The notes beneath the pieces are model-generated. The model was not told the DNA's origin and made no database searches. It saw only the letters and a list, made by a program, of their open reading frames with translations. From positions 1-21,893 of IMG/VR virus record IMGVR_UViG_3300007276_000353: a DNA stretch of 21,893 bases. One strand, 5' to 3'. The position numbers and the translations under genes are program-made. The DNA comes from a virus. Shown here in pieces: positions 1-14,938 of the stretch (position 1 is the first letter of the stretch; every line of letters begins with the position of its first letter).

Positions 1-816
1 AGCTACTGCAATGTTTGCAGAGCCATCAAAACTTGTACCACCAATAGTTCTAGCAGTTGTTAAAGTAGCTGCTGAACCTGTTGTGTTTTGATTAAGTGTA
101 CCGATTGTAAAGTCTAGTGTGTTATCTGCATCTTGGTAAGCAACTGTAATTCCTGATTCAGTATTACTCGATACCATAGCACCAACAGTATCAGAAATAA
201 CTTCTGATAAATCTATGTTAGCAGTACCATCAAAAGAAACACCGTGTATGGTTCTTGCTGTGGCTAAAGCTGTTGCAGTAGCTGCAAGTCCTGAAGTGTT
301 TTGATTACCAGCAGTGTTAACTCCCGGTAAGTCTATGTTGGCTGAACCATTAAAGGATACACCACCGATAGTCCTAGCTGTTGCCAGTATGGTCGCTGTT
401 GAAGCATTACCTGTTAATGCACCTGTGAAGCCTGTAGAAGTCAACATTCCTGTTGATGGGTTGTAAGTTAAACCTGTGTCTGTTTCTAAACCCTGTGTAC
501 CTGTCGCACCATCTACAAAAGTGGGGTAAACAGTTTCGTTAGCTGAGTTGTTTGCCGTAATCGTAGCGCCTGTAGCAGTGCCCAAGGCCACCGGTTCGAT
601 GTGGTAAACAGTAATAACCCTGCTATTAGCAGGAGCGGTAGCAAACGTTAAGGTTGTACCGGAAACAGAATAAGTATTGTGAGCCTGAAAAGCACCATCA
701 ATATAAACTTGTAAGTATTTTTCGTCTGTTGCGGCTTGAGTTAGGGTAAAAGTAGTATCACTACCATCCCCTGCAAAGATATCTGTATTCCAAGAAGAAG
801 TGCTTGTGCTAACTTC
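1..816 (-). CDS. Tail fibre continuation in the -1 frame, 3' end outside window
   Basis: This frame is open for 272 codons from 816 to the window edge, with a TAA at 817-819 just before it and no start codon of its own there. It continues the fibre begun at 1100. It first gives a beta-rich domain (LTQAATDEKYLQVYIDGAFQ), then a Gly/Ala/Thr-rich shaft. Three copies of a TARTI[GH]G[VT]SF[DN]G[ST]ANI motif lie at about 4-63, 208-270 and 328-390. This motif is widespread in phage tail fibres, where it forms trimeric shafts. The receptor-binding tip would lie beyond the window. It is confidently fibre sequence, but whether it is translated together with the front part depends on the frame break. 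Confidence 0.75.
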
Positions 817-1100
817 TTAAGTACAACTGCGGTTATCCTTAGTTCTGCTTTATCGCCAGAACTAAATGCACGCGCTGAGGTGTTATCTTGCGCTCTAACA
901 ATGGTTAAAACATGCGTACTACGAGCAGTAACTTTTACTATTTCAGTATTAGTTCCGTCGTCAAACGTACAATAAAAATGCTCACCTGAACTTAAAGATG
1001 GAAAAAGGTTACCATTAACAACAGTAGCACTTGTTGCGCTGTTGTTTAAATCCGCAGCAAGAGTTGTTTTGGCATTATTAGTATATTTAATACTCGCCAT
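741..1100 (-). CDS. Tail fibre N-terminal part, ends in a frame break
   Basis: The ATG at 1100 follows an AGGAG ribosome site. Residues 1-95 (ASIKYTNNAKTTLAADLNNS and onward, through LRITAVVLKKL) look like a normal fibre-attachment domain. The last 25 residues of this frame are an out-of-frame extension. Shifting by one base near 810-816 restores typical fibre sequence (STSTSSWNTDIFAGDGSDTT), which then stays open to the window edge. The intended product is therefore a longer tail fibre, and this 119-residue frame is its broken front. A sequence indel, a natural mutation or programmed -1 frameshifting could explain it. No classical heptameric slippery site is visible at the junction. Confidence 0.7.
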   Translation of the reverse strand: MASIKYTNNAKTTLAADLNNSATSATVVNGNLFPSLSSGEHFYCTFDDGTNTEIVKVTARSTHVLTIVRAQDNTSARAFSSGDKAELRITAVVLKKLAQALLLGIQISLQGMVVILLLP

Positions 1101-2845: not shown

Positions 2846-5800
2846 TTAAAAGGAAAACGGATTGTAATCATCTAGTTTTGCATCACCTTGCCACAGGTTT
2901 TCTACCCTTTCTGCGGTTGGCCCTAACCCGTTTACAAACCAGGAACTACCATATTCGTCTGCCTGTGTCATTCCGTAAATTAATCCATAAGCGCCAGCCA
3001 CACCACTTCGGTCTAATATCTCTATGAAATACTCCCCCCAAGGCATGTTGTCAGAGCGGAATGCAGTAGCATCCCCACCCCTGCGTAAGTATTTAATAAA
3101 TTCTCTTATTTCTAAACCAACAGCCGTTAAAGGCAGCAGGGTTACTGCTCCTAAAATTAAAGGTAAAGCTGTACTAGGCACTAACCCATCTTTTGCGTGT
3201 CTATTTTTTGTTTCTCTTATGGCACCACCAACGATGTTTTTTCCAAAAGCATAAAAGAAAGATTTAAGTTGCCAAATTAAAGCTGTGTATGGGTTTGAAG
3301 CCCAAACAGGTCTTTCAGCTGCACTTGGTCTAACAATAGATTCTTCTACAAACCTACCAATAGCTGCTTTTATTTTAGCGCCTTCGGGGCCAGAAAGATC
3401 TCGTTTGTTTTCTGATTTGCTCCAAGCTAATACTTCCTCTCTAGTAAGCTCTAGTTCTCTTAAATACCTATTACTCTCTGCATCATTTGTTTTAGCTAAA
3501 TTTATTAAGAATTGTTCGCCCATACCCGCTGCAAATATTCTTGTAAACTTAGTAAAAAAGTCTAAACCAATTACCTTAAAATACTTATTTGCTAAAAATT
3601 TGGTTTCTTTTGTCATGAAACCCAATTCAGCAACATTAATGTACATAGTTTCTAATGAGTCGTGTGTAATAACTCCTAAGTCTTTTGCAAATTGTTCTGC
3701 AGCTTCTCGGTTTTTAAGATAATACTTTACTTGGTCCATTGTCTGACCAAAATTGTTCATGCCTTTACTACGTAAAATGGGTCCTGCTAAATCTGGTAAA
3801 GAAGCAAGCGTAGTAAAAGTCAAAATCGTAACCATGTTAGTTAAAAGCCCCCAACTGTTTATTTGCCTGGCCCAACCAGACATGCCAAGCCCAACACGGC
3901 CAAGCATAGCTTCCATCGCTCTACGGGCGCCTCGCCTATCATTAACATCTTTTATTCTAGAAAGAAGAACTTCTGTAGCTTTCCAACCAGTTAGATCATT
4001 AACAAAACCAGAAGACTCTGTTCCAACAATAGCATTAGCGGCATCTTCACCTAGCTGGCTTGCAATGTTATCCCAATCTTGTGCAGTACTTGTTACTCGT
4101 GCTCTTTTGTCATACTCAACTCGTTTTACTGTATCTTCTATATAAGCTTTTAGGCTATAAGCTGCTGGATTAAGAAGTTCTATATCTTTTGATCCTTCGG
4201 GATTTATTTGACCCTGTTCATTAAGGCCCCGCCTAGCGGCCTCAGTTGGTATTGATTTAAAATATTTGACCCTTGCTTGGTTCATACCAAGAGATAAAGT
4301 AGAAATGCCATTGTCAGTTTTTGCGATGGCTTCGTTGTCTTCATCAGTTTCTAACCAAGATTCAACATAAGACTCCCAATTTTTATATGTAACACCTTGA
4401 CCATCAGTTATGTTTCTTACAGTTGGGTTGTACTTCCTTAAAAGCTTAGCCATCATCGCTCTTTTTTCAGGGCTTTGTCGCAGTTCTGCTAAACTCCATT
4501 TTCTTGGAAAGAAGTCTGGAAGTTTTAAAACACCTTCTAAATTACCATCAATATAAGTATCATAAAACTCACTTAAAAATTCTCTCATTTTTTGTGCTTC
4601 TGGACTAAGTTCAGCTGTAGGTGTACTAGCTTCCGCTTCTTCTGCTATTCGAGTTAGGGCTTCCATGTTAGGCTCGCCATTTTTTTTCTTGGGAACTAAC
4701 GAATAAATTTGATTTAGTTTTTGGTTTATAACTAAAATACGAACATTTATATATCCACTTTTATCTTCGCTTTGTGATTCCGAATACATAATTGCTGCAA
4801 GAGCGGGACTTAGTTCTTTTAAGTAACCATGTGCAGTTTTAAACACATAATTTAAAGATACATGTTTTTTATCTTTTGGCAAAAGTGGCAAAGGGGCTCT
4901 TAGTAAAGCTTCTACTTGACGTTTTATAAAGAACAACGCTTGTCTAGATACACCTTTTGGAGTATCTATTGTTTGCTCCATTACATCTAATACCCTATAA
5001 ACTTCTGCTTTTTGGTCCCTGGTAAAGTTATTAAATGTTGTTTTTTTATTCCCTGGTGGAGATAGGTTAGCAACTTGTTGGACTCCATTCATGTAAGTTA
5101 CAAAGTCTGGGTCTAGAGTAAATCTACCTTTTGCTTGCTTGTTAACTATATCGAAGAATTTTTTTAATCTTTGTATAATACGTTTAAAGTAAGACTGTAC
5201 AAAGTTAGTGGCTTTTTGATCTGGGTCTAACGCATAAACAGAATATTGATCCGCATACCATTCTTCAAAACCAAATTTACCATCATACTTTGTGCTACCT
5301 TGATCCTGCAAAGCTTTTTTTGCTTTAGCAAAAGCGTTGTCTAGTAATTTTTTAAGTTGTGGAATTTCTAAAGAACGTTCTAATTCGTGTCTATAAACAC
5401 CATGCCCTATTTCATGGCCTAACGCCCTGAGCATAAACGCAAACTGTTCGTCTGTGGGCTTTTGCTGCAAGTTTAAAATAATTACGTCTCCTTGCGCACC
5501 AAACTGTACTATCCGAGCAGGTTTTCCTGTTTTACGCATATCCTCTTTTATGTTCTCTACAATCCATTTAGCATTTCGAGAAACCCCTTTTTCATCTTCA
5601 TAGATATTATTAAACTCGCTGCCTAGCACAATGTCATCGTCAAGCGAAATAATACGTAAAGTTCGACCATACTTTAGCTGAGTGTTAATAGCATTTAAAA
5701 GTACATCAACTATAGAAACCCCTTTAGCCCCAGCAAAAGCACCAAACAAGTTTTCTCGTTTAAAGTAATCTTTTACTCTTTGTGTTGCTGAAGTTCTTTT

Positions 5801-8800
5801 GTTTTCTACACCTTGTTGTTTTTGAGTACTTAAGTAAGTTTTCCCTACTTTTGCGGAATTAGCGTTTAAAACATTTATGTGTGCGTCATAACCAAACTCA
5901 TCTCTTATACCACCCGCTTGCATTTGTTCTATTTCGTTTGCTTCTACGTCTATTGTTTCATTTAAAGAAGCTGCTTCGCTGTCTGTAAAAATACCTTCTT
6001 CTCGAGCAATGTCTTGCAGGTATTCTTGAAATTGTTTTAAATATTCGCGTTCTGATAAAAAAACCTTTTTTGTAGGCCCTACAAAATAATAAAAAGGTTT
6101 TTTAATAGTTTTTGTTTCCCCTTTTTTAGTCGTTCCTTTTTTTTCTAAAGGTACTACATCTTGAAAACCTCTTGCCTGTTTAAACTCGTTTTCAAAATCT
6201 TGTCTTGTGTATCCTTCGTACCGACCAAAAGGTTTTTCTCGGTTAAGTTTTGACTCGTTAGCTATAAAAACTATTCCTGCGCTCGGTACTTTCATACTAG
6301 CGCCAGTAACAATATTTTGCACTGTGCTTGCGCCTGAAGTTGTTCGTTCTGTTTTAAATATAGGCTCCCCCGCGTTATTTAGTTTTGGAATAGGGTTACC
6401 TTTATTATCTACTTTGTTTGTTCCATCTTTATTTTCTTCATAAACTGGAACCTGTTGTTCTAGTGTGTTTCCAGCACCCGTATCAAAAGCCAGCTGTTCT
6501 GATGTCCCTTCTAAGCCCGTTAAAGAACCTACAATTTGTTTTACGTCAGAATTAATAATGGTGTTTAGTGCCTTATTACTAACAGGTTCTTTTTTTATTG
6601 GAACTCCAACCTCAACAGAACCCGCTTTGTTTACAACAAATTTATCGCCCTGTTTTTTAAAGTTGCTTATTTTAACCGCATTAACTTCCGCATTAGTCAT
6701 GCTAGCAACTCTTTTGCCTTTGTATTCTATTGGTTGATTTAATTCTTCAGCTATACCAATTAAATTTTTAAAACCCTGTCGGTTTCTTTCTGCAGGGGAT
6801 AAAGAAGAATCTACTTCGTTACTATCATCTGCATACACTGCGTAATTAATAAGAGTAAGAATATCTACAGACTCCCCATTTATAGTAAAAGCTCGTGCTT
6901 CTGGAGAATCGTTTACTTCTTCTCTTTGTTGTCTGTAAGAGGCTTCTTTAGCTCTTTGTATTGCTTTGTCAAAGTCAGCTTGTTCTTGGCTTAAATCTGC
7001 AATAATAGAGTAAGCAGATTCTCCTTCTATTGGGTTGCCTTCTTTATCTACAGCTGGAACTTTTGATAATATAAAGTTTGATTTATCATCTCTTTTTTTT
7101 AGTCTAGTAAATTCGTTTAGTTTACCTTTAGGTACATCATCGATTCTTTGTACTCCGTCTTCGTAAGAAGTCCAAAAAGATCTTTCTCTGTCATCGTCTA
7201 ACGAATCTAAAAAGTCTTTTTTTTCTTCTATAGAAGGTTTTTGTTTATCCCCTATAGTTTTGTTTTTGTAACTAGAAGGTGTTAAAGCGGGTTCGGCTAA
7301 AACTTCTGTATCAACTTCCGCATTAACTGTTAAGTTACCACCTTCAAACGCATCAGCTAAAGTTCCACCAAACTCTGTTTGCCCTTCATCTCCAGCTGTT
7401 TCATAAGTAGGATCATCGTCTTCTACTACGTCTTTAACAGTTACTTTTTCTGGGCCTTTGTCTTCGCGTCTTATTTGTTCAAGTCTAGCTGCGTTAAAGT
7501 GTAAGCGAGCACTAGTATAAATTCCTTCTTTTGGGTTTGCGGTGTTCAGTGTATCTGTTAGCAACGTTATTAATTCTTTTAGCTCTGCATCAGTTAAATC
7601 TTTTATTTTTTTATCGCGGAATTTTGCAAACTTTTTACCTGTTTGCGTAATTTTAAAATTAGGGTTTGATGCATTAAGTGTTGTTGCACTTGGGCCCCCT
7701 AGTAAAACGTTTTCCCCTGCTTGGTTTATTACTCTTAAAGAACCCTTTGCGCTTACCGCAGTAACTTTAGCCTTATACCTTTCTCCCTTAGCATTGTAAA
7801 CATCAATCTCATCCCCTACTTCTAGAGTTGCAAGGTCTTGAGGGTTTGCTGCCTGGGCTCCATCTGCGGTGTCAGAAGGATCAGTACGTTGATCTGGCTG
7901 TTTTTTAGCTTCTTGTTCCTTATTTAACCTTGCTTGTTTTTCTTCTCCAGTTTGTTCTTTATCAGCTTTGGTAACAGTAACTTCGCCCGCGGCAAGTTCT
8001 TCTTTATATCTATCCCTAGCATTTTTTTCTGCAACTTTTTCACCAGCTTTGTTTGTGGACTGCGTAAATACATGATTACCATCTTTGTCTTTTACTACAA
8101 AAACAATTTCGTCGTCTATATTTTGAGGTTGGCTAAACCCTAAAAGCTCTTGTTTATATTCTTCGGTTAGCCCCCCTCTTTCTAGCATTTCTTTTTGTAT
8201 AGTTGATGACTCTTTTGCTTGAACTATAGCAACGCTGCCCTTTTCTTCGTCTACAAGAATCTCTACATCATTTATGTCTTTTATATTTTGGTTTCCAGAC
8301 TGTGTTGCCCAAATATTCTTTACAATTTCGTTAGCCTGTTCTTTTGTTGTGTTTTCTAAAACCACAGCTCTTCTTGCAGACTTAGATTTTACAAGATCAT
8401 TTATTTGTGCGATTAAATCAGCATCTGGTTCTACTTGAGTTCTACCATCTAGAACTTGTTGTGATTCTTCTTGGTTTAAATCTGCTTGAACTTCTCTGCC
8501 AGTCGACAATAAATTGTAGGCTTTCGCTATAACGCTTGTAGGAGCTGCTCTAGCACCACCGGCAAACGCTCCAACAAAAGCCGACTCCAACATGCGCATT
8601 TTTGCTTCTTGTGCTGAGTAATCAGGGTCTATTGCAAACCGTTGCGCAACTAACGTTCCTTCTTGTAAAGTTTCAGTTACGCCTTCTACTACAAAACTTT
8701 GCCCTGATTTTATAGCTACGGCTTTAGCCAGTTCTTTCATAAAAACACCAGCGGCCATGTCGCCAGCAACGGCGTCTCCCAAAGCCATTTTGGTCATGCC

Positions 8801-9289
8801 CCTAAAGAAAAGGCCTTCAGATAAAGTACCAAGTAGGGCTTGTGGTATACCCAAAGCGGCGGCCATTTTTGCTTCTTCTTTTGTTAGTTCAAAACCGGCA
8901 TCATCATATTCTTTTAATGCTTGGGACGAACCTACTACGTACTCTTGGCCAAATGCGCCTGTGCCCATTCCAATTTTAGTAGCTGTAGTGCTTGTATAAG
9001 TTCTAGCAGCTCTTGCCGCGTTATACCCGTTTTCAACAAACTCTGCTTCTGCTGCGGTTAGTTTTATGTTATTTTTTTTCTTTCTAGCAATTGTATTAAA
9101 CTTCTTTTTTAAAAAAGCTCGGCTTGCAAAAGTTACTCCACCTTTTCCAAGGTTAGCTACAATACCGCCAACACCCGCAGATATTACAGACGTCATGGCC
9201 ATTGGCGTAAAAGACCCTACGCCTTTTACTACTTGTTCTACAAAACCACTAAAAGTAGGAGCGTCGTAAAACTCTTCAAAAGCACCCAT
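2846..9289 (-). CDS. Giant ejection-type virion protein with metallopeptidase motif
   Basis: From its first in-frame ATG this protein has 2147 residues. It most likely is an ejected, multidomain protein occupying the T7 gp16 slot. An N-terminal region has Gly/Ala-rich hydrophobic segments. A small beta-barrel-like piece (LEVGDEIDVYNAKGERYKAK) sits near residues 486-536. A zinc-peptidase motif HEIGH is at residues 1292-1296, with EEWYAD at 1342-1347 supplying a possible third ligand. Long helical regions follow, then hydrophobic segments near 1818-1838 and 2040-2060 that could span a membrane. The ATG at 9289 has no Shine-Dalgarno, and the same frame remains open upstream to 9469 with protein-like sequence (SLGETFGEAVRAGGKQFESD). 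The real start is therefore probably near 9473 or the lysozyme is fused. Host target is unknown. Confidence 0.85.
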   Translation of the reverse strand: MGAFEEFYDAPTFSGFVEQVVKGVGSFTPMAMTSVISAGVGGIVANLGKGGVTFASRAFLKKKFNTIARKKKNNIKLTAAEAEFVENGYNAARAARTYTSTTATKIGMGTGAFGQEYVVGSSQALKEYDDAGFELTKEEAKMAAALGIPQALLGTLSEGLFFRGMTKMALGDAVAGDMAAGVFMKELAKAVAIKSGQSFVVEGVTETLQEGTLVAQRFAIDPDYSAQEAKMRMLESAFVGAFAGGARAAPTSVIAKAYNLLSTGREVQADLNQEESQQVLDGRTQVEPDADLIAQINDLVKSKSARRAVVLENTTKEQANEIVKNIWATQSGNQNIKDINDVEILVDEEKGSVAIVQAKESSTIQKEMLERGGLTEEYKQELLGFSQPQNIDDEIVFVVKDKDGNHVFTQSTNKAGEKVAEKNARDRYKEELAAGEVTVTKADKEQTGEEKQARLNKEQEAKKQPDQRTDPSDTADGAQAANPQDLATLEVGDEIDVYNAKGERYKAKVTAVSAKGSLRVINQAGENVLLGGPSATTLNASNPNFKITQTGKKFAKFRDKKIKDLTDAELKELITLLTDTLNTANPKEGIYTSARLHFNAARLEQIRREDKGPEKVTVKDVVEDDDPTYETAGDEGQTEFGGTLADAFEGGNLTVNAEVDTEVLAEPALTPSSYKNKTIGDKQKPSIEEKKDFLDSLDDDRERSFWTSYEDGVQRIDDVPKGKLNEFTRLKKRDDKSNFILSKVPAVDKEGNPIEGESAYSIIADLSQEQADFDKAIQRAKEASYRQQREEVNDSPEARAFTINGESVDILTLINYAVYADDSNEVDSSLSPAERNRQGFKNLIGIAEELNQPIEYKGKRVASMTNAEVNAVKISNFKKQGDKFVVNKAGSVEVGVPIKKEPVSNKALNTIINSDVKQIVGSLTGLEGTSEQLAFDTGAGNTLEQQVPVYEENKDGTNKVDNKGNPIPKLNNAGEPIFKTERTTSGASTVQNIVTGASMKVPSAGIVFIANESKLNREKPFGRYEGYTRQDFENEFKQARGFQDVVPLEKKGTTKKGETKTIKKPFYYFVGPTKKVFLSEREYLKQFQEYLQDIAREEGIFTDSEAASLNETIDVEANEIEQMQAGGIRDEFGYDAHINVLNANSAKVGKTYLSTQKQQGVENKRTSATQRVKDYFKRENLFGAFAGAKGVSIVDVLLNAINTQLKYGRTLRIISLDDDIVLGSEFNNIYEDEKGVSRNAKWIVENIKEDMRKTGKPARIVQFGAQGDVIILNLQQKPTDEQFAFMLRALGHEIGHGVYRHELERSLEIPQLKKLLDNAFAKAKKALQDQGSTKYDGKFGFEEWYADQYSVYALDPDQKATNFVQSYFKRIIQRLKKFFDIVNKQAKGRFTLDPDFVTYMNGVQQVANLSPPGNKKTTFNNFTRDQKAEVYRVLDVMEQTIDTPKGVSRQALFFIKRQVEALLRAPLPLLPKDKKHVSLNYVFKTAHGYLKELSPALAAIMYSESQSEDKSGYINVRILVINQKLNQIYSLVPKKKNGEPNMEALTRIAEEAEASTPTAELSPEAQKMREFLSEFYDTYIDGNLEGVLKLPDFFPRKWSLAELRQSPEKRAMMAKLLRKYNPTVRNITDGQGVTYKNWESYVESWLETDEDNEAIAKTDNGISTLSLGMNQARVKYFKSIPTEAARRGLNEQGQINPEGSKDIELLNPAAYSLKAYIEDTVKRVEYDKRARVTSTAQDWDNIASQLGEDAANAIVGTESSGFVNDLTGWKATEVLLSRIKDVNDRRGARRAMEAMLGRVGLGMSGWARQINSWGLLTNMVTILTFTTLASLPDLAGPILRSKGMNNFGQTMDQVKYYLKNREAAEQFAKDLGVITHDSLETMYINVAELGFMTKETKFLANKYFKVIGLDFFTKFTRIFAAGMGEQFLINLAKTNDAESNRYLRELELTREEVLAWSKSENKRDLSGPEGAKIKAAIGRFVEESIVRPSAAERPVWASNPYTALIWQLKSFFYAFGKNIVGGAIRETKNRHAKDGLVPSTALPLILGAVTLLPLTAVGLEIREFIKYLRRGGDATAFRSDNMPWGEYFIEILDRSGVAGAYGLIYGMTQADEYGSSWFVNGLGPTAERVENLWQGDAKLDDYNPFSF

Positions 9290-9469
9290 TTGGCTAAGTA
9301 TTTCTGAAGCGCTGTCGTCTAAAATTTTAGCGTTACCTAACTTAACACGTGCTGCTTCGTCATTACCGGTTAATAAATTACCAATAGCACCAAACGTGTA
9401 AATATCGGATTCAAACTGTTTTCCACCCGCTCTAACTGCTTCTCCAAAAGTTTCACCAAGGCTTAATTT

Positions 9470-10096
9470 TCATTGCGCATCACCTAGCCCCTCAACTTTT
9501 TCTCCAGCAAAAGCGCCTGAAACTGCTTCAATAGCTTTGGTATTTGGAGCAAAAGGATCACCTGCATTAAGAAGATTAGCAATTGGGCCTCTTTGTGGTT
9601 GAGTAGGTTCTGCTTGTGCACTTATTTTTTCTATAGGGGCAGGTTGATTGGCTTGAAGCTGTTGTAGAGCCGCTTGAAAATTTTGTACTCTTTTAGGGGT
9701 TTGGTTGTTCCATGCAGAATCTGCAGCTTCAGTTGCAGCCCCACTAAAATTTCCTTGTTGCATTAAGCCCCAAGTTTGTTGGTGGTCTTTATACCAGTTA
9801 GTTCCTAGTTGAAAGTTTACTTCACCAAGTGAGTCTATAAAGTTACTATTACCACCTTGGCCTAACTGATTTGCTTGTTGTGTTGCGGCTGTGTAAGCTT
9901 TAGTAGAATCTTGATCTAGCCATTTGCTAATAAGGGCGTCATCAATTGTATCGCCTTCTTTGTATTGACCAAGCTCAGCATTTGTTAATTTGTGTCCAAC
10001 CCCGGCTGTTAAAAAACCTTCGCTATCTCGATAAACGTCGTTTCTGTAGCCTTCGTTGGTTTTTAAGTTATTAAGAAAATTAGGAGAGATTGACAC
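9470..10096 (-). CDS. T4-type lysozyme (GH24) linked to the giant ejection protein
   Basis: This 208-residue protein hydrolyses peptidoglycan beta-1,4 bonds. The first 40 residues match T4 lysozyme: E15 in NEGYR, D24 in YRDSEG and T30 in LTAGVGH align with the T4 catalytic Glu11, Asp20 and Thr26. The lysozyme domain covers about residues 1-145. The remainder is a Gln/Pro/Ala-rich linker (PAPIEKISAQAEPTQPQRGP). The start is GTG at 10096, with a weak AGGT-type ribosome site. There is no signal peptide and no holin beside it. Together with the position inside the virion module, this suggests a tail-borne wall-opening enzyme rather than the endolysin, much as T7 gp16 carries its own murein hydrolase. 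The stop is UGA, in the same frame as the giant protein that follows. Confidence 0.9.
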   Translation of the reverse strand: MSISPNFLNNLKTNEGYRNDVYRDSEGFLTAGVGHKLTNAELGQYKEGDTIDDALISKWLDQDSTKAYTAATQQANQLGQGGNSNFIDSLGEVNFQLGTNWYKDHQQTWGLMQQGNFSGAATEAADSAWNNQTPKRVQNFQAALQQLQANQPAPIEKISAQAEPTQPQRGPIANLLNAGDPFAPNTKAIEAVSGAFAGEKVEGLGDAQ

Positions 10097-13833: not shown

Positions 13834-14277
13834 TTATAATTCTCGTCTATATGTTTGTGTCACTAAATTAAAATCGTGTAGGGGTGCAATTTTTTCCCAA
13901 CCTTTTCTATTACTATCAAATTCTATTGCAACCGCTTTCATGTCATCTGCAACCTTTTCTAAAAATTTGAAGATAGCGTTTAGATAATTATACTCTGGTT
14001 TTTGATAACTTGCCCATACAAACAAGGTATCTTCACCGCTAATGCTTCTTAAAGTATTAACTACTATAAACCCAATATAAGCGTCTTCTTCATACAACAT
14101 GTACAACGTAGACAGTTCTTCTTGTAGAGATAAATAAATGTCAGGGCTAATCCAATTGGGTTTGCACTTGGTTCTAAGAGTTTCTAAATCAGGTTGTATT
14201 TTTTCAAAAGCACAACGTACTTCAGTAAGAGGGATCGTCTCAATTGAGAGCCCATCAATAGTCAATCTCTGAACCAT
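13834..14277 (-). CDS. GNAT-like protein in the T7 gp13 position
   Basis: This 147-residue protein resembles the small acyltransferase-like proteins found among podovirus virion genes. Visible features are an early helical segment, a central beta-beta unit (STLYMLYEEDAYIGFIVVNT), a strand-turn-helix around FVWASYQKPEYNYLNAIFKF and a final GWEKIAPLHDFNLVTQTYRR stretch typical of the end of the GNAT fold. The canonical acetyl-CoA loop (Q/RxxGxG/A) is not evident, so enzymatic activity is doubtful. Its place after the connectors and before the internal proteins is that of T7 gene 13, whose product family has been linked to the same fold. It overlaps the upstream gene by 23 bases. Function in assembly is more likely than metabolism. 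Confidence 0.62.
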   Translation of the reverse strand: MVQRLTIDGLSIETIPLTEVRCAFEKIQPDLETLRTKCKPNWISPDIYLSLQEELSTLYMLYEEDAYIGFIVVNTLRSISGEDTLFVWASYQKPEYNYLNAIFKFLEKVADDMKAVAIEFDSNRKGWEKIAPLHDFNLVTQTYRREL

Positions 14278-14938
14278 ACTTCTTATACCTTTTACGAGGG
14301 CTTAATCCAGCTCCTCTATATTTAACTGTTCGCTTAACTCCTAAATCACCGCCTCTGGCTTTTAGTTCTGCTTGTACAATTTCTTGACTAAACAAATTTA
14401 AGTAATCGGCGGCAGCTTGTGGGTCAGTCCAATCTTTTGCTGGAATTCTAAGAAGCCTATAAAGTGTTCCATAAATTATACCATCTCGATAACTATTAGA
14501 AAAAGTAGTGTCAATGTTACTTGTAGTTCTACTTGGTTTTAACGCAACAGACAATTGAATGCCATTAGCAACCGCGCTTCCTGGTATTGGTATAACCCAA
14601 AAAGCGTCTGGGGTTTTTTGTAAATATACCTGTGGTACAGATGTTTTATTTCTCCAATCAGAGTAATTAAGTTCAAGACTTCTAGGACTAATAGGATCTA
14701 AATCATTACCATCATAAGTCATCCAAAGTATTTGATGCACATCCGTGCCGCTTGGTTGATCAAATTCATATTCAAACACTCCTGGAATACTAGTAATAGC
14801 ATCTAAGTCAAAAGTATATGCTTTAGACCTTTCAGCAAACTCTATGCAAGCAGAGCGTAACGTAGACTCAATTAAAGAATCTGGGCAATTTGGAACATAC
14901 GGAAGTATGTCTTTTACTAGCGAATCAAAAGCTGCCAT
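14255..14938 (-). CDS. Second connector-like virion protein
   Basis: This 227-residue protein has a layout similar to the preceding adaptor. It opens with a helical segment (FDSLVKDILPYVPNCPDSLI), has a beta-rich centre with repeated short strands, and includes a helical YRDGIIYGTLYRLLRIPAKD region near residues 145-165. The C terminus is very basic (RTVKYRGAGLSPRKRYKKYG), which would suit contact with DNA or with an acidic partner. It starts on the stop of the preceding gene, and its TGA stop lies 23 bases inside the following gene. It may be a second ring of the neck or a tail completion protein. Common ancestry with the upstream adaptor is possible but is not shown by clear identity. Its virion role is inferred from position. 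Confidence 0.68.
   Translation of the reverse strand: MAAFDSLVKDILPYVPNCPDSLIESTLRSACIEFAERSKAYTFDLDAITSIPGVFEYEFDQPSGTDVHQILWMTYDGNDLDPISPRSLELNYSDWRNKTSVPQVYLQKTPDAFWVIPIPGSAVANGIQLSVALKPSRTTSNIDTTFSNSYRDGIIYGTLYRLLRIPAKDWTDPQAAADYLNLFSQEIVQAELKARGGDLGVKRTVKYRGAGLSPRKRYKKYGSEIDY

Follow-up and report, generated by a model that had tools for sequence, protein, structure and literature searches.

A lysozyme module and a giant putative virion protein encoded in one reading frame that is interrupted by a single TGA in a metagenomic virus record

The sequence analysed here, referred to as the window, is the whole 21,893-base stretch of IMGVR_UViG_3300007276_000353, a 21.9-kb linear metagenomic virus record. 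The main genes of the window all lie on the minus strand, and profile searches located genes for a terminase, a P22-like portal and a major head protein upstream of the lysozyme/giant protein gene. Translation of the minus-strand frame from GTG 10096 to TAA 2846 revealed 2416 codons with one internal stop, a TGA at 9472-9470. The lysozyme open reading frame (9470-10096) begins at this GTG and encodes 208 amino acids, while the earliest ATG past the TGA is that at 9289, 180 bases downstream. The 60 intervening codons contain no ATG, GTG or TTG, and a search just upstream of ATG 9289 yielded no Shine-Dalgarno-like stretch. The original prediction had described the two proteins as sharing one frame split by a single UGA, with no start codon in the intervening codons, no ribosome site at ATG 9289, and an ATG at 9473 beside a run of four A; all of these are borne out by the sequence and its translation. 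The features of the window that concern the present analysis are as follows.

9473 to 10096, minus strand: residues 1-208 from a GTG start, comprising an N-terminal GH24 phage-lysozyme module with a linker rich in proline and glutamine (PF00959, phrog_2083, E15-D24-T30)
9470 to 9472, minus strand: in-frame TGA, where the two closest relatives, L002 and L003, have GGA (Gly) (translation, alignment with relatives)
9290 to 9469, minus strand: 60 post-stop codons for KLSLGETFxEAVRAGG..., a conserved segment at the N-terminal end of the giant protein (dN/dS, homologues)
2846 to 9289, minus strand: remainder of the giant ejection-type protein, with ATG 9289 as an internal Met (alignments; phrog_30152, phrog_6958)
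741 to 1100, minus strand: 5' part of a tail-fibre-type gene, frameshifted near 818 in the window (comparison with the overlapping record L097)

The lysozyme module matched PF00959 with 34.9 bits (curated cut-off 22.3) and phrog_2083, 'internal virion lysozyme motif', with 52.3 bits, the latter match being to the C-terminal end of the profile. The catalytic Glu-Asp-Thr set E15, D24 and T30 is present in NEGYRNDVYRDSEGFLT, with the spacing of T4 lysozyme, and the module is ∼43% identical to the lysozymes of Pseudomonas podoviruses. The giant part has no Pfam match and only weak PHROG matches, all to virion proteins; near its C terminus it is weakly related to the 'virion structural protein' families phrog_30152 and phrog_6958. 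Virion location and ejection of the giant protein are suggested by gene order and these weak matches.

Two further observations were made on the giant protein. In the fused frame, residues 1561-1565 (5402-5416, minus strand) form a zinc-metalloprotease-like HEIGH motif, with EEWYADQ ∼50 residues later at 5246-5266. The HExGH motif is found in all ten other records checked, in a region where Pfam has no domain, and may possibly mark a conserved zincin inside giant virion proteins. The two closest relatives lack a counterpart for a segment of ∼140 residues (7495-7925) of the giant protein, where the alignment shows a gap.

The coding nature of the 60 codons following the TGA was assessed by comparison with the nearest relative, from which they (9469-9290) differ by 6 amino-acid and 13 synonymous changes, giving dN 0.055 and dS 0.77. 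The corresponding values are dN 0.10 and dS 0.74 for the lysozyme domain, and dN 0.10 and dS 0.98 for the 300 codons following the 60. The 60 codons are therefore coding and under purifying selection, constrained like the lysozyme domain and the next 300 codons. Furthermore, relatives retain a stretch of the type LGETFxEAVxAGG that can be recognised at 28-54% identity, and homologues of the giant protein that carry no lysozyme have it too. A protein initiated at ATG 9289 would lack this conserved stretch, and the Met encoded there is absent in two more distant relatives, L007 and L008; ATG 9289 is therefore rejected as the gene start. The dN/dS values together with the homologues, lysozyme-less ones included, uphold the earlier view that these codons are open and protein-like and that the extension upstream of ATG 9289 is real protein.

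Relatives were collected from IMG/VR by one scan with the lysozyme and one with the giant protein. In the two closest (72-77% identical), lysozyme and giant protein form a single unbroken frame, reading CAA GGA AAA TTA AGC at the junction as against CAA TGA AAA TTA AGC in the window; as these two are 98% identical to each other over the N-terminal third, the identity of the glycine codon is in effect documented by a single lineage. L007 and L008 are likewise fused. The alignment of homologues, which had been proposed as a check, thus gave a clear outcome: the giant protein is fused in one frame to the same type of lysozyme in 10 of 50 loci, and a stop separates the two at the junction in none of the 50. 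In the DNA examined, which covered up to 5 kb on either side of the giant gene, no lysozyme could be recognised at the remaining 40 loci, and a separate lysozyme gene was found nearby at none of the 50. One of the lysozyme-less loci has a transglycosylase-like module, four have another N-terminal module, and the rest have a short N terminus (one being a fragment). The transglycosylase-like module stands in place of the lysozyme in L094, and a module of the type 'NNxLNVRxNxxNNWxGQTG' does so in L083, L086, L087 and L092.

Searches for additional copies of the junction were also carried out. Searching IMG/VR with a degenerate DNA pattern that spans the junction retrieved only the two closest relatives and two unrelated loci, an exact 35-base pattern beside it matched no further record, and no near-identical record covering 9470 was found. 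GTDB genomes contained no relative of the giant protein, and the first ∼490 residues encoded downstream of the TGA matched nothing in annotated phage records. Among the relatives, the stop at 9472-9470 is unique to the window record.

These observations make it highly probable that a single gene encodes lysozyme and giant protein as a fused product of ∼2416 residues, and that the TGA is a one-base departure from the glycine codon of the relatives, arising either by error or by nonsense mutation. On the sequences compared, the TGA is not a conserved translational device. In the fused product, an N-terminal GH24 muramidase would open the peptidoglycan during DNA entry, and would be followed by the linker and then by a very large virion protein, which is probably ejected.

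The record contains a further frame break, which bears on the cause of the TGA. A one-base gap near 818 puts the tail-fibre-type gene (741-1100 and 1-816) out of frame in the window. IMGVR_UViG_3300022072_000235 (L097; 17350 bases) overlaps positions 1-2591 of the window and is 99.92% identical to it over 2592 bases, differing by one mismatch and by a single gap, which lies near 818; it carries the tail-fibre-type gene intact, as a 669-residue open frame. It is likely to represent the same or a sister phage, and it ends before 9470. It extends past the first base of the window into more tail-fibre-type genes. Gene 1562-2440 of the window, in the same region, has imperfect repeats at 1941-2214, ∼108 bases apart and 86% identical. 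The records of the two nearest relatives contain no split genes. With one frame-breaking base in the 2.6 kb of checkable sequence, a second at 9472 would be unsurprising as an error. Since the record has another frame break, which is absent from the 99.9% identical L097, a sequencing or assembly error in the metagenomic record appears to be the likeliest cause of the TGA, with a true strain-specific nonsense mutation ranking second.

Were the TGA a genuine nonsense mutation carried by a living phage variant, it would split the gene, leaving a free 208-residue lysozyme and a giant protein that is weakly initiated at an internal site and devoid of ∼60 conserved residues, or else a defective genome. 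Such an origin is possible but rather unlikely. A single base change is enough to produce it, and lysozyme-less giant proteins exist in the family, so that some lineages can do without the enzyme module. These points have to be set against the 180 bases without a start codon or ribosome site, against the loss, on initiation at ATG 9289, of residues kept in homologues even where the lysozyme is lacking, and against the strong purifying selection on the gene on both sides of the stop. The original prediction had offered two other explanations, of which one was a start of the giant gene at ATG 9473, overlapping the lysozyme stop as ATGA and hidden by a wrong length of the A run, or a programmed slip at that place. 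The ATG and an AGGTG stretch do exist in the window; the AGGTG, however, is part of conserved Leu-Gly-Asp codons, and the relatives have an equally long A run with neither an ATG nor a stop, the frame being open through the site. The A run is therefore not a signal of a lost frame, and this explanation, now refuted by the relatives, is extremely improbable.

The other explanation was functional UGA readthrough, by which the phage would make lysozyme both on its own and, in a minority of products, fused to the giant protein. In its favour, a UGA with A as the next base is leaky in bacteria, and the frame past the stop is open and conserved. However, the UGA is present in none of the relatives, every fused one of which has an open frame, and readthrough would lower the yield of a structural protein. 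Folding against shuffled sequences detected no stimulatory RNA structure after the UGA, the downstream RNA folding worse than the shuffles (z +1.4 and +1.6), and neither the window record, which is without any tRNA gene, nor the relatives contain a suppressor tRNA. As the UGA is not conserved, lacks a stimulatory structure and serves elsewhere as an ordinary shared terminator, readthrough finds no support and is considered very unlikely. The narrower variant, a recently arisen leaky UGA giving mostly free lysozyme, little lysozyme-giant ejection fusion and an altered stoichiometry of the ejection machine, is given slightly less credence still. Decoding of the UGA by the phage as glycine (code 25) or as another residue is the least probable of all, even though the residue of the relatives at this site is glycine: the gene at 14255-14938 and its homologue share their termination point, a UGA (14255-14257), no other internal UGA occurs in 5745 codons, and all 361 positions with Gly in both the window and a relative use GGN. 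A UGA-recoded code (4 or 25) was accordingly rejected, UGA not being used as sense and being a shared terminator at 14255-14257. Selenocysteine was rejected as well, because the residue in the relatives is Gly rather than Cys or Sec and the UGA is followed by no stimulatory structure.

The preferred reading, a single lysozyme-giant protein gene, gives an arrangement that may be compared with T7 gp16, the likeness lying in gene layout and probable function. T7 gp16, also called internal virion protein D, stands with related podoviral ejection proteins that begin with a peptidoglycan hydrolase. As in those proteins, a cell-wall-cutting module at the N terminus is fused to a large protein of virion or ejection type, a fusion seen in the relatives and broken by the TGA in the window; the gene likewise follows those for portal, capsid and tail proteins. 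Unlike T7 gp16, which has a lytic transglycosylase, the present protein has a GH24 lysozyme, and its ∼2400 residues compare with 609-1337 in gp16-like proteins (PMC8954989). The N-terminal transglycosylase of T7 gp16 aids the passage of DNA through the peptidoglycan, and ejection proteins exchange the hydrolase module among themselves, as reviewed in PMC8954989. The proteins of phrog_2083 share the matching lysozyme module, which is N-terminal here and C-terminal in the profile. Prokaryotic genes with in-frame stops and suspected readthrough (PMC7918605) resemble the present gene in having one internal stop flanked by coding sequence and a low dN/dS; the case made there rests on evolutionarily conserved stops, unlike the stop described here, which occurs in one record only.

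The annotation of the locus is corrected accordingly, as a gene caller would wrongly report two products, a free lysozyme and a protein of 2147 residues. The window record has frame-breaking differences, and claims of recoding or slippage drawn from it need support from the reads. Giant virion proteins of ∼2000-2400 residues with interchangeable N-terminal cell-wall enzymes constitute a modest new example of a known modularity.
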